NCBI RefSeq assembly: GCF_001510655.1
Contig: NZ_LMVC01000002.1
Coordinates: 1,152,379-1,216,378, forward strand
DNA from: Fictibacillus sp. FJAT-27399
GTDB taxonomy: Bacteria > Bacillota > Bacilli > Bacillales > Fictibacillaceae
Reading direction: 5' to 3'
Length of the DNA stretch: 64,000 nt
Position numbers and translations under genes: made by a program. Below are positions 35,960 to 63,420 of the stretch, piece after piece (positions within the stretch are counted from its first letter, which is position 1; each line of letters opens with the position of its first letter). The notes under the pieces were generated by a model, which worked only from the letters and a program-made list of their open reading frames with translations, was not told where the DNA came from and made no database searches.

Positions 35960-36110
35960 GAAAAGGTGGTATCCCGCAGTGCGGGAACTGCACTTTCTTT
36001 GAACGTGTGACAGATAGCTTTACATCTGCCTAGATCCATCAAGGACCGGGACAGAGGGATTGGAAATGTTAAAGATGCAATGGACCCCTCTGCTTATTTG
36101 AGGGGTTTTT
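35960..36110 (+). promoter_or_regulatory. Structured leader of panBCD (pan-motif type candidate) with an attenuator
   Basis: The 208-bp gap before panB can form several hairpins: CCCGC-agt-GCGGG (35973-35985 region), CAGAT / ATCTG near 36011-36028, and a terminator CCCCTC / GAGGGG (36085-36105) followed by five Ts. CAGAGGG (36052-36058) is complementary to CCCTCTG (36086-36092) in the terminator, and GGGACAGAGG (36048-36057) to CCTCTGTTCC (36111-36120), so exclusive folds exist. A pan RNA motif upstream of panBCD is described in Firmicutes; I cannot check the consensus here. Confidence 0.5.
36084..36110 (+). terminator. Conditional terminator in the panB leader
   Basis: Stem CCCCTC / GAGGGG with a 9-nt loop followed by TTTTT, 33 bases before the panB start. 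Confidence 0.75.
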
Positions 36111-36142
36111 CCTCTGTTCCTCCCAAAAAAGGAGGAAAAAGG

Positions 36143-36976
36143 ATGAAGACCACGCAAAGTTTTTCGGCTATGAAGCAGCAGAAAGAAAAGATCACGATGA
36201 TTACTGCATACGACTTTCCATCAGCCCAGCTCGCCGAACGAGCGGCAGTGGATATGATTCTCGTCGGCGATTCGCTCGGAATGGTGGTACTTGGGTACGA
36301 TTCGACAGTACCGGTAACCGTAGAGGATATGATCCATCATGCCCGCGCTGTAAAACGAGGGGCACCGAACACGTTTATCGTGACTGATATGCCCTTTATG
36401 AGCTACCATGCCGGCAGAGCGGAGACGGTGAAGAACGCAATGAGGATCATGCAGGAAACAGGTTCCCATGCTCTTAAGCTTGAGGGTGGAAAGAATGTGA
36501 TCGAAACGATCGGATATTTAGTGGATGCGGGCGTTCCAATCATCGGCCACCTCGGGCTTACACCTCAGACAGCTGGCGTGCTTGGCGGCTATAAAGTACA
36601 GGGAAGAGAATCGAAAAAGGCAAAACAGCTGCTCCAGGATGCCCTAGCGATCGAAGAGGCGGGAGCTTTCGCTCTTGTGCTTGAATGTGTACCGAAACAG
36701 CTGACACAGCTCGTTGCGGAGTCTGTGAAAATTCCTGTTATCGGCATTGGTGCAGGGAATTCTGCCGACGGCCAGGTGCTCGTGTATCATGACCTGGTCG
36801 GTTACGGTTTTCATCATGTTCCGAAATTTGTGAAGATGTTCGCCCATTCGGCGGAGGCTATGCAAAAGGGGATTGCAGACTTTATTGCTGAAGTAAAAGA
36901 AGGAACGTTTCCTGCTGAAGAGCATTCATTTACGATGAAGCCGGAAGAAGCAGAAGCGCTGTACGGAGGGAAATAA
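36143..36976 (+). CDS. panB: 3-methyl-2-oxobutanoate hydroxymethyltransferase
   Basis: A 277-aa TIM-barrel enzyme making ketopantoate. [38 protein letters not shown] and PVIGIGAG are typical. The ATG at 36143 follows AAAAGGAGGAAAAAGG; the frame is open upstream but runs through the attenuator. First gene of panBCD. Confidence 0.97.
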
Positions 36977-36977
36977 A

Positions 36978-37838
36978 GTGAAAATCATCACAAGTATCAG
37001 CGAGATGAGGGCGTTCAGTGCTGAAGCGAAGACCGGGGGTAGGACCATTGGCTTCGTACCGACGATGGGCTATCTACACGAGGGGCACGCCTCACTTTTG
37101 GAACGCGCGGGAAAAGAGAATGCTCTTACCGTACTGAGTATTTTTGTCAATCCGCTCCAGTTTGGCCCAAACGAAGATTTTGACCGTTATCCGAGGGATT
37201 TTGAACGAGACGAACGAGTGGCCCTGAACTATGGTGTGGACGCTTTGTTTTATCCGGAGGTACAGGATATGTATCCTTCCGAGCCTTCAGTCACCATGAG
37301 GGTAAACAAGAGGGTGGGTGCTCTTTGCGGAAGAACGAGGGAAGGCCATTTTGACGGCGTGGCCACCGTTTTGACCAAGCTGTTTCATATCATCTCACCT
37401 GACAGGGTTTATTTCGGGATGAAAGATGCACAGCAAGTGGCGGTCGTGGAAGGGTTGATCTCAGACTTGAACTTTCCGGTCGAACTCGTCCCTTGTCCTA
37501 CCGTCCGAGAAGAAGACGGGCTCGCAAAAAGTTCAAGGAATGTTTATCTTTCACCTCAGGAGAGGCAGGAGGCGCCTGTCTTATACCGGTCGCTCCAGGA
37601 GGCAGCAGCTCGTCTCTTGGAAGGGAAAAATGTTATACACATCAAAGAAAAAATGATAGAGTATTTAGAGGAGCATACAAGCGGGAAAGTGGACTATTTT
37701 GAGATATTGTCCTATCCGGAACTTGAAGAAGCTTCAGCAGCAGACCAGAAAAAGATCATCGCGCTCGCCGTTCAGTTTAAGAATGCGAGACTGATTGATA
37801 ATCTAACCATAATTCCTGATGGAAGGAACCATAGGTGA
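36978..37838 (+). CDS. panC: Pantothenate synthetase
   Basis: A 286-aa ATP-dependent ligase joining pantoate and beta-alanine. The HIGH-like motif is in [14 protein letters not shown] and the KMSKS-like motif in [15 protein letters not shown] start one base after the panB stop. It overlaps the panD region: the panD start follows by 5 bases. Confidence 0.97.
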
Positions 37839-37843
37839 TTCAT

Positions 37844-38227
37844 ATGTTCAGAACAATGATGAAAGGCAAAATACACCGCGCCCGCGTAACAGAATCTAAC
37901 TTAAATTACGTGGGAAGCATAACGATAGATGAGGATATCCTGGATGCGGTTGACATGGTGCCCAACGAAAAGGTGCAGATCGTCAACAACAACAACGGAG
38001 CCAGATTTGAGACGTATATCATCCCGGGGCCCCGCGGCACAGGTGTGATGTGCCTGAACGGTGCTGCTGCCCGGCTCGTTCAGGAAGGAGACGTTATCAT
38101 CGTGATCTCCTACGCCATGATGGCAGAAGAGGAAGTTCCGTTCCACCAGCCGAGAGTGGCGATCATGGATGAAAATAACTCAATTACTGAAATACTAGGT
38201 TATGAACCGGCTTCAACGATTCTTTAA
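37844..38227 (+). CDS. panD: Aspartate 1-decarboxylase proenzyme
   Basis: A 127-aa pyruvoyl enzyme making beta-alanine for PanC. The self-cleavage site Gly24-Ser25 lies in [25 protein letters not shown] follows. I prefer the ATG at 37844 (TAGGTGAT upstream), giving the normal 127 residues; a GTG at 37835 would add three. Confidence 0.97.
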
Positions 38228-61100: not shown

Positions 61101-61212
61101 CATTATAAACTAATAAGCAGTTTATTCCTATTCTCGCCGAAATTCAAATATTGGGATTGAACGCCTAGAACTGAACCGTAAAACCTTAAAATAGTTCCGA
61201 TCATATAAAAAA

Positions 61213-61456
61213 GGGGCTGTCCTGAAAGTCGAAAATTGACCTTCAGCAGCTCCTTTTTGGCTTGAAAATCTTCAATGAAAAGTTGATTGAAGTGGAAGGT
61301 GCGAGGCTCCTGCGGGACTAGCGTGACAGGTGAGACTCCCGCAGGCGCTAGCGCCAAAAAGTAGGCGTTCACGCCGGTAAGGCCCACCGCACGCCCCGCG
61401 GAAAGCGAGCACCCTGGAACGGAAATCAACAGCTTACAGACTTCTTGGACAGCCCC
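61213..61456. repeat. MITE-like GC-rich repeat element
   Basis: Bounded by perfect 10-bp terminal inverted repeats GGGGCTGTCC (61213-61222) and GGACAGCCCC (61447-61456). The GC-rich core begins GTTGATTGAAG and ends GGAAATCAAC and has nested hairpins (CCTGCGGG / CCCGCAGG; palindrome GGCGCTAGCGCC). I recognise the core as a repeat widespread between genes of Bacillaceae. No reading frame. The surrounding 61101-61560 holds nothing else recognisable. Confidence 0.7.
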
Positions 61457-61561
61457 ACCTTTTCCGCTCAAGAGGGTTAACGGAAAAGCCTTCACATTAG
61501 CAGGGATTAAGAGAATTCGATAGTCTCTAAATAAAATGTTTGAATTTTTAATATACAGGTG

Positions 61562-61590
61562 TTGATAGCTGCCTGAAAGTTTGTTAGTAT
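61562..61590 (+). promoter_or_regulatory. Predicted promoter of serA and its riboswitch
   Basis: TTGATA at 61562-61567, 17-bp spacer, TAGTAT at 61585-61590; the riboswitch starts about 15 bases downstream. Confidence 0.65.
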
Positions 61591-61604
61591 AAAACAAATT
61601 AAAA

Positions 61605-61708
61605 GGCTATGTGTAACTGGCGAAACGCGGATAACCGCGAGGGAGCACATAGTGTCGCAGCCGTTCGCCTGGGCAGAGGTAAGGAGATTTTTTCCCTTAC
61701 CTCTTTTC
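61605..61708 (+). promoter_or_regulatory. ZTP (pfl) riboswitch upstream of serA
   Basis: Outer helix CTATGTG (61607-61613) / CACATAG (61646-61652) encloses the conserved ACTGGCG (61616-61622), the hairpin CGCGG-ataa-CCGCG (61626-61639) and GGGAGC. Then comes the second domain with CCG..CGCCTGGGCA (61661-61675); GGCG (61619-61622) can pair with CGCC (61666-61669) as the pseudoknot. This is the ZTP/ZMP riboswitch plan. A terminator AGAGGTAAGG / CCTTACCTCT (61675-61704) follows directly, so ligand binding probably decides read-through into serA. Confidence 0.85.
61675..61708 (+). terminator. Terminator of the ZTP riboswitch expression platform
   Basis: Perfect 10-bp stem, 10-nt loop, followed by TTTT; its 5' arm begins at the last base of the aptamer. 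Confidence 0.8.
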
Positions 61709-61808
61709 TGTTTATTTGAGGAAGTATAGGGTAATTCGTAAGTTTCCTGCTTTACTTTTGATAATTTGATTAAAGAGGAAACCATCATAAAAAAGAGGAG
61801 AGAACCAA

Positions 61809-63008
61809 ATGACGACAATCACGTTAGAAAAAGGAAAAACCATCAAAACCTTAAATAATATAGCGGAAAGCGGTCTGAAGGTATTCAACAAAGGCAACTA
61901 TATTATAGACAACGACAGTGACAATCCTGAAGCGATCGTTGTTCGCAGCTTTAACATGCACTCTTTAACATTTGGAGATGAACTCAAAGCCATTGCGCGG
62001 GCTGGGGCGGGAGTTAATAATATTCCGGTTGAACTATGTACTGAGCAAGGAATTGTTGTTTTTAACACTCCTGGAGCTAATGCGAACGCGGTAAAAGAAA
62101 TGGTACTGACATCATTAATGGCTTCATCCAGGAACCTTTTTGCCGGTGTGGAATGGACAAAGACTTTGGAAGGCGAAGGTGAACAAATACCAAAACTTGT
62201 AGAAGCAGGAAAGAAACAATTTCTTGGAAAAGAAATCAAGGGAAAAACGTTGGGTGTAATAGGTTTAGGTGCAATCGGTGCACTTGTAGCGAATGATGCG
62301 CTTGATTTAGACATGGATGTAATTGGGTTTGATCCGTTCATCTCCGTGGATACAGCCTGGAACCTGTCCCGCAATGTACAGCGGGCGATGACGCTTGAAC
62401 AGTTATTTGCCGAATCAGATTATCTTACAGTACATGTTCCTTTAACGCCTGATACAAAAGAGATGTTTAATCAGAAAGCGTTCAATGTTATGAAACCGGG
62501 AGTCCATATATTAAATTTCTCTCGCGGAGAGCTTGTGAACGAAAAGGATATGGAAATCGCACTCGAAAATGGAATCGTCGGCCAATATATTACTGACTTT
62601 CCGAATGAAAATGTGCTGAAAATGAAAAATACTGTTCCGGTCCCACACCTTGGAGCTTCCACGAAAGAATCAGAGGAAAATTGTGCCATTATGGCGACCC
62701 GCCAGGTGAAGGAATTTTTAGAAACCGGAAACATCAGAAACTCCGTAAACTTTCCAAACGCTTCCCTTCCTTATACAGGAAAGCTGCGAGTGGCAGCTTT
62801 CCACGAAAACGTACCGAATATGGTGGGCCAGATCACACTTGCTGTATCAAGCTATAATTTGAACATCGCTGACATGGTTAACAGAAGCCGAGGAGGATAC
62901 GCCTATACGATGATTGACATTGACAATAAGGTAAACGGCGAGGTAATCCCTGGTTTAGAAGATAAGATCAAAGAAATTGACGGCATCATTACAACGCGTG
63001 TGATCTAA
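61809..63008 (+). CDS. serA: D-3-phosphoglycerate dehydrogenase SerA, short form
   Basis: A 399-aa NAD-dependent enzyme starting serine synthesis. The NAD-binding GVIGLGAIGALVAN (about 148-161), HVPLTPDTKEMF, NFSRGELVNE and HLGASTKESEENCA are typical. A C-terminal ACT domain (about 320-399) is present; the long C-terminal domain of the 525-aa B. subtilis form is not. The ribosome binding site is AGAGGAGAG. Regulated by the upstream ZTP riboswitch. Confidence 0.93.
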   Translation: MTTITLEKGKTIKTLNNIAESGLKVFNKGNYIIDNDSDNPEAIVVRSFNMHSLTFGDELKAIARAGAGVNNIPVELCTEQGIVVFNTPGANANAVKEMVLTSLMASSRNLFAGVEWTKTLEGEGEQIPKLVEAGKKQFLGKEIKGKTLGVIGLGAIGALVANDALDLDMDVIGFDPFISVDTAWNLSRNVQRAMTLEQLFAESDYLTVHVPLTPDTKEMFNQKAFNVMKPGVHILNFSRGELVNEKDMEIALENGIVGQYITDFPNENVLKMKNTVPVPHLGASTKESEENCAIMATRQVKEFLETGNIRNSVNFPNASLPYTGKLRVAAFHENVPNMVGQITLAVSSYNLNIADMVNRSRGGYAYTMIDIDNKVNGEVIPGLEDKIKEIDGIITTRVI

Positions 63009-63024
63009 TAACAAATAAAATTGT

Positions 63025-63066
63025 AAAGAAAGCCTCAATTCCTTTAAGGAATTGAGGCTTTCTTTA
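63025..63066. terminator. Bidirectional terminator after serA
   Basis: Perfect inverted repeat with 18-bp arms (63025-63042 and 63048-63065) around TTTAA, shared with the convergent DUF2512 gene. Confidence 0.9.
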
Positions 63067-63420
63067 TATAGGTTCGCTATGAGCTTTATGAGAAGCCAAT
63101 AAATAACGGTGCGTAAAAAATTCGAGGATTCCCAGTAAGACACTTGTTAAAAGAGCGCCAAACCAAGTAACAGAAGCTTCCCATTGAAAGTTTGAGGCAT
63201 AATAGAGAATGATACAGGATACCGCCACATCAATGAATACACTGATCCAAAGAGCCCCTTTGCGAAGGACAAAGTATTCGACTGCGACTCCAAGAATTGC
63301 AAGCGTCATTCCCACCACAATGATTTGCCAATAACTCTCGAAATGTACACCTGGAAAGAAAAAAGCAGCGACGAATAAAACAATGGGAATCGCAATAAGT
63401 TTTATGATCAAACTGGTCAT
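63064..63420 (-). CDS. DUF2512 membrane protein (YndM-like)
   Basis: A 118-aa membrane protein with four helices (about 4-24, 31-51, 57-77 and 86-105), without catalytic motif. AGGAGG lies 11 bases before the ATG on the reverse strand. The pattern fits the DUF2512/YndM family of Bacillus. Function unknown. Confidence 0.8.
   Translation of the reverse strand: MTSLIIKLIAIPIVLFVAAFFFPGVHFESYWQIIVVGMTLAILGVAVEYFVLRKGALWISVFIDVAVSCIILYYASNFQWEASVTWFGALLTSVLLGILEFFTHRYLLASHKAHSEPI

Follow-up and report, generated by a model that had tools for sequence, protein, structure and literature searches.

A ZTP riboswitch, very probably a transcriptional ON switch, ahead of a short-form serA gene in Fictibacillus sp. 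FJAT-27399

A stretch of 64,000 nucleotides of the Fictibacillus sp. FJAT-27399 genome, hereafter called the window, was analysed. Near its end lies serA, encoding a short-form 3-phosphoglycerate dehydrogenase (PGDH)-like protein, and its leader carries a promoter-like site, a ZTP/ZMP aptamer and an intrinsic terminator (Table 1). The ATG of serA ends at 61811. After the stop codon a strong hairpin with a T-run was recognized by eye, and the first ORF beyond is on the opposite strand, indicating that serA is the sole gene downstream of the leader, as had been proposed. Just upstream of the serA promoter, at 61208–61462, we noted a repeat of about 250 bp, of which at least 40 near-full copies, this one included, are present in the 4.5-Mb genome at 92–100% identity (40 of 211 candidates were scored). 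Some copies are flanked by a further partial copy, and one ends 14 bp beyond the stop codon of a second, long serA gene; the element looks like a mobilized intergenic repeat. Elsewhere in the window, a pan motif RNA (RF01749, 52.7 bits) was detected at 35963–36058, directly before putative panB, panC and panD genes (36080–38227, assigned by eye).

Table 1. Features of the serA locus (positions in the window)
Feature	Position	Strand	Description and basis
Promoter-like site	61562–61590	+	Sigma-A type, TTGATA-17-TAGTAT, TG before −10 (extended −10); promoter scan
ZTP/ZMP (pfl) aptamer, RF01750	61603–61681	+	Covariance-model match over the whole model length
P1	61606–61653	+	61606–61614 with 61645–61653; encloses P2
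P2	61626–61639	+	61626–61630 with 61635–61639
Pseudoknot	61619–61669	+	GGCG 61619–61622 with CGCC 61666–61669; agrees with class consensus
P3	61660–61674	+	GCC 61660–61662 with GGC 61672–61674; CGCCTG element in loop
Intrinsic terminator	61671–61708	+	61675–61684 with 61695–61704; outer pairs 61671–61673 with 61706–61708
Ribosome binding site	61796–61803	+	AGGAGAGA; by eye
serA	61809–63008	+	Short-form 3-phosphoglycerate dehydrogenase-like protein, 399 aa
Hairpin with T-run	about 63026–63067	+	Downstream of serA; by eye

The aptamer matched the full length of the RF01750 model with a score of 62.7 bits, above the gathering score of 39 (E = 8.5e-08 for the 64-kb window). P1, P2, P3, the GGCG/CGCC pseudoknot and the CGCCTGGGC element were all located, on checking the letters, where the original prediction had placed them. 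The full-length match, the consensus structure, the core letters and a terminator that shares bases with the aptamer's 3′ part are in common with the ZTP/ZMP (pfl) class, and no difference from this class was seen. Relatives of the locus were collected as the best 80 of 356 serA loci, all at least 81% identical, of which the nearest are those of F. terranigra (91%), F. enclensis and F. solisalsi (both 88%) and F. fluitans (87%). The aptamer is present upstream of the gene in 79 of these 80 named loci, the remaining one (L135) having only two bases of upstream DNA, and the score of the window copy is within the range of this set (49.3–65.1 bits). By a folding model without pseudoknots, the aptamer segment alone was no better than shuffled sequences (z = −0.45). 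A hidden second aptamer, for glycine or of the T-box type, between the ZTP aptamer and serA was considered and rejected: no second known aptamer was found by Rfam search in 61681–61809, the other matches being far below their family cut-offs.

The promoter-like site ends 12 nt before the aptamer, and from its extended −10 sequence transcription is expected to start a few bases before P1. The scan reported two promoter-like sites on both strands together, against a mean of 0.7 in shuffled sequences. A script rule detected such a site at the corresponding position in 48 of the 79 named ZTP-serA loci versus 45 of 395 letter-shuffled upstream stretches, indicating that promoter conservation across the named loci is only partial. 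The terminator hairpin, AGAGGTAAGG...CCTTACCTCT, precedes a T-rich stretch and has a folding energy of −18.4 kcal/mol (z = −4.1; equalled by none of 200 shuffles). Its outer pairs would draw two bases from the 3′ strand of P3, so that this expression platform overlaps the 3′ end of the aptamer. The hairpin was not reported by the terminator scan, because the loop of 10 between its arms is outside the allowed loops of 3–8; the scan reported instead a weaker 6-pair hairpin at 61556–61575, on top of the promoter, where 0.5 is expected by chance. By a simple script rule, a terminator within 80 nt downstream was found in 78 of the 79 named leaders versus 4 of 395 shuffled ones. The energy of the hairpin and the retention of its stem in relatives bear out the claim that the leader ends in a terminator before serA.

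Conservation of the leader was then examined in an alignment of 128 distinct ZTP-serA leaders, using a structure based on that of the window and on the class consensus. Aptamer pairing was kept in 98.5% of cells. P1 was paired in 97.2% of cells with five of nine pairs changed on both sides, and P2 in 98.6% with two of five pairs so changed; over the whole aptamer, seven of 21 pairs (85 cells) were changed on both sides. None of 500 shuffles matched this count or the covariation score, and further pair types, one of the five covariation measures, were reached by 82 of 500. When partners were slid, pairing fell to 24–59%, a control against which the tested structure is favoured since it was taken from the window and the class consensus. 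In P3, two of three pairs are invariant and one varies on one side. All 128 leaders have the same complementary letters in the pseudoknot, so that covariation speaks neither for nor against it. Nine stem pairs of the terminator were formed in 99.9% of cells, two pairs (5 cells) being changed on both sides. The RF01750 score, the covariation of P1 and P2 in homologous leaders, the terminator and the promoter altogether support the original prediction of a ZTP riboswitch before a short-form serA.

We next counted the genes that follow ZTP aptamers. The order was represented by 397 genomes, 147 of them with a ZTP match. Partners were called by the best blastp match to three references among ORFs within about 1.5–1.7 kb downstream; the references for folD and serC, initially identified by eye, were subsequently supported by Pfam, and that of serC also by NCBIfam. 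Among the 150 matches listed and classified (125 genomes; weaker, unlisted matches left out), the partner was serA for 66, folD for 55, serC for six and another gene for 23. With the genomes of the family included, the set comprises 163 matches in 133 genomes (serA 73, folD 61, serC 6, other 23). One serA partner, the 263-residue ORF of locus L003, aligned over 256 residues only. serA is therefore the leading ZTP partner counted in this order, and the suggestion that it is a less usual partner is not supported by this count or by the aptamer in nearly all named relatives.

Ten of the 23 other partners were given Pfam names: four DJ-1/PfpI-family proteins and one each of an amino-acid permease, a sodium:alanine symporter, an AICARFT/IMPCHase (PurH-like) protein, an IMP cyclohydrolase-like protein, a methyltransferase and a protein with a beta-lactamase-type domain. 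ZTP aptamers precede DJ-1/PfpI-family proteins at L019, L031, L168 and L250 (by Pfam) and at L025 and L225 (by eye). In nine genomes (L059, named by Pfam, L060, L061, L062, L066, L067, L071, L072 and L153) the aptamer is followed, after about 55 nt, by an amino-acid permease of some 530 aa, which is possibly a serine or glycine importer. The ORF with the beta-lactamase-type domain (PF00144; L057:272-1609), an unexpected partner, begins 17 nt past the aptamer.

The five commonest partners given in the 2010 description of the pfl motif are purH, fhs, pfl, glyA and folD, and serA is not among these five (PMC2864571). In a 2022 survey, five tandem ZTP/glycine systems of Bacillus and Oceanobacillus are placed before the gene that starts conversion of 3-phosphoglycerate to serine (PMC9481103); the ZTP-serA association is thus already in print. 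These systems have the aptamer class and, by that description, the kind of gene in common with the window, but differ in that no glycine aptamer was found between ZTP and serA in the window by Rfam search. The tandem type was detected in two of the 80 named loci, those of Cytobacillus citreus (L133) and Bacillus sp. FJAT-29790 (L141). The pairing in the window is an already-known association, and the commonest one counted in related bacteria. Elsewhere in the class, in other families, the aptamer stands before long-form SerA, and such loci share with the window the switch and the pathway step. Of 49 class loci, picked by score and family and not at random (L284 and L303 are cut by contig ends), 17 were serA-like, 15 folD-like, one serC-like and 16 other. 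Three of the 17 serA-like loci were checked, and long-form SerA was confirmed behind ZTP in all three (L278, L294 and L316); the long protein is about 35% identical to the window protein and has 528 aa in L316, the only locus where its end was read.

Upstream DNA was available for 99 short serA loci, and each of these had a ZTP switch or serC as a neighbour, never both. The 80 named loci showed no serC in their fetched flanks, which extend for at most 3 kb to either side and for less where a contig ends. Twenty leaders were fetched for short SerA not yet seen with ZTP (L257-L276): 17 have serC directly upstream and no ZTP, the remaining three have ZTP and no serC, and none has both or neither. 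The 17 serC-adjoining homologues include 13 at 65% identity or more and four at 60–63%. Among 85 short SerA proteins of at least 65% identity in the 397 genomes, the classified matches assign ZTP to 66, and three further cases (G196, G335 and G228) were found on reading; for the other 16, the 13 leaders fetched have no ZTP, G217, G285 and G363 being left out.

The host genome contains two ZTP matches, one before serA and the other before folD (L252:3536-4384). Both partners belong to purine or one-carbon metabolism; the two switches stand at the first enzyme of the route from serine to 10-formyl-THF and at its last. The folD product is best matched by FolD models, none of the 25 shown reaching its curated NCBIfam cut-off. 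Duplication of folD, in the manner of serA, was rejected, as a single folD is over the Pfam cut-off in this genome. One serC is present. The formate-THF ligase gene (fhs) is also present, which disposes of the idea that ZTP-serA marks genomes lacking this enzyme, with serine as the sole one-carbon route. A match to the ligase was found in 49 of the 66 ZTP-serA genomes of the order (47 without the weak matches of G224 and G414), and in 293 of all 397 (286 over the cut-off). The long SerA of the host (526 aa; TIGR01327, 651 bits) is encoded about 80 kb from the short serA; no ZTP match was found in the 9 kb around it, and its leader showed no Rfam family at a credible score. Long SerA was above the cut-off in 43 of the 73 ZTP-serA genomes, the host included. 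A long SerA follows none of the 163 ZTP matches that were classified, and all serA partners are at least 68% identical to the short one.

The short SerA protein contains PF00389 and PF02826, no PGDH_inter domain was reported, and no ACT domain was found at threshold by the domain search; several PGDH matches extend to residues 397–398. Both curated NCBIfam cut-offs for PGDH were missed (TIGR01327, 245.8 of 454 bits; NF008759, 179.5 of 404 bits), so that we infer both the enzyme name and the activity. The designation as short form holds by length. The protein could be another 2-hydroxyacid dehydrogenase, in which case the switch would be right and its metabolic reading wrong; this is what the two low scores and the full long SerA elsewhere in the genome would suggest. 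Against it, phosphoglycerate dehydrogenases make up the best PDB relatives (about 134 bits for seven distinct sequences), the ZTP-less homologues stand directly behind serC in all 17 leaders described above, and in the 30 of 73 ZTP-serA genomes without a long SerA at the cut-off the short protein would be the sole PGDH found. We regard such a dehydrogenase of other specificity as improbable; the short SerA is probably a phosphoglycerate dehydrogenase that starts serine synthesis.

We conclude that the leader holds a ZTP riboswitch of the ordinary kind, most likely an ON switch acting on transcription of serA, with a probability of about 93%. Its ligand, ON direction and metabolic purpose, like the enzyme activity, are assigned by analogy with the class. 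As described for the class (PMC7337938; the mechanism is drawn also from PMC7484762), the ZTP riboswitch is an ON switch, and without ZMP the nucleotides of P3 pair downstream into a terminator; the 2022 survey likewise places a ZTP ON switch before the gene starting serine synthesis (PMC9481103). By this model, the aptamer would be transcribed a few bases past the predicted start. Upon shortage of 10-formyl-THF, ZMP and ZTP would build up and bind the aptamer, and the bound ligand would stabilize P3 and the pseudoknot, keeping the terminator off the 3′ strand of P3. With the terminator blocked, RNA polymerase would continue into serA, and more phosphoglycerate dehydrogenase would give more serine and thereby one-carbon units for THF; without ligand, the terminator would form and serA expression would be reduced. 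Since fhs is present, serine is not the only route to 10-formyl-THF in this genome, and with no folD over the Pfam cut-off other than the ZTP-gated one, tight control by these switches is hardly to be expected.

The opposite polarity, a real switch in which ligand binding promotes termination before serA, has a precedent in the survey, where one tandem ZTP system, before moeA, is predicted to be OFF (PMC9481103). In the window, however, the outer pairs of the terminator take bases of P3, so that the aptamer and the full terminator exclude each other, and the Rfam search revealed no second known aptamer downstream; we rate an OFF switch as unlikely, slightly more so than a dehydrogenase of other specificity. 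Least probable of all is a relic leader that no longer responds to ligand, its terminator alone fixing a constant level of serA, a view to which fhs as an alternative source of formyl-THF might lend itself, but against which stand the core and terminator stem kept in 128 distinct leaders, the compensatory changes in P1 and P2, and a window score inside the range of its relatives.

Beyond the ON switch, we tentatively consider a further role, which is less likely than its converse. The short SerA could be a ZTP-gated second PGDH for one-carbon demand, providing a serine entry parallel to that by long SerA and, together with the ZTP-gated folD, steering carbon of 3-phosphoglycerate into 10-formyl-THF; on this view the short serA gene could have come out of an ancestral serC-serA operon and acquired a ZTP switch of its own, while other families would have put long SerA under ZTP control independently. 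The 30 ZTP-serA genomes in which no long SerA was found count against this proposal, because the short SerA is no spare there, as does folD without a second copy in the host. serA is a main ZTP partner in this order, and no oddity, so that the influence of the ZTP alarmone plausibly extends to the step at which serine synthesis begins. The presence of two isoenzymes, as in 43 of the 73 genomes, offers a testable case of an alarmone-gated paralogue.
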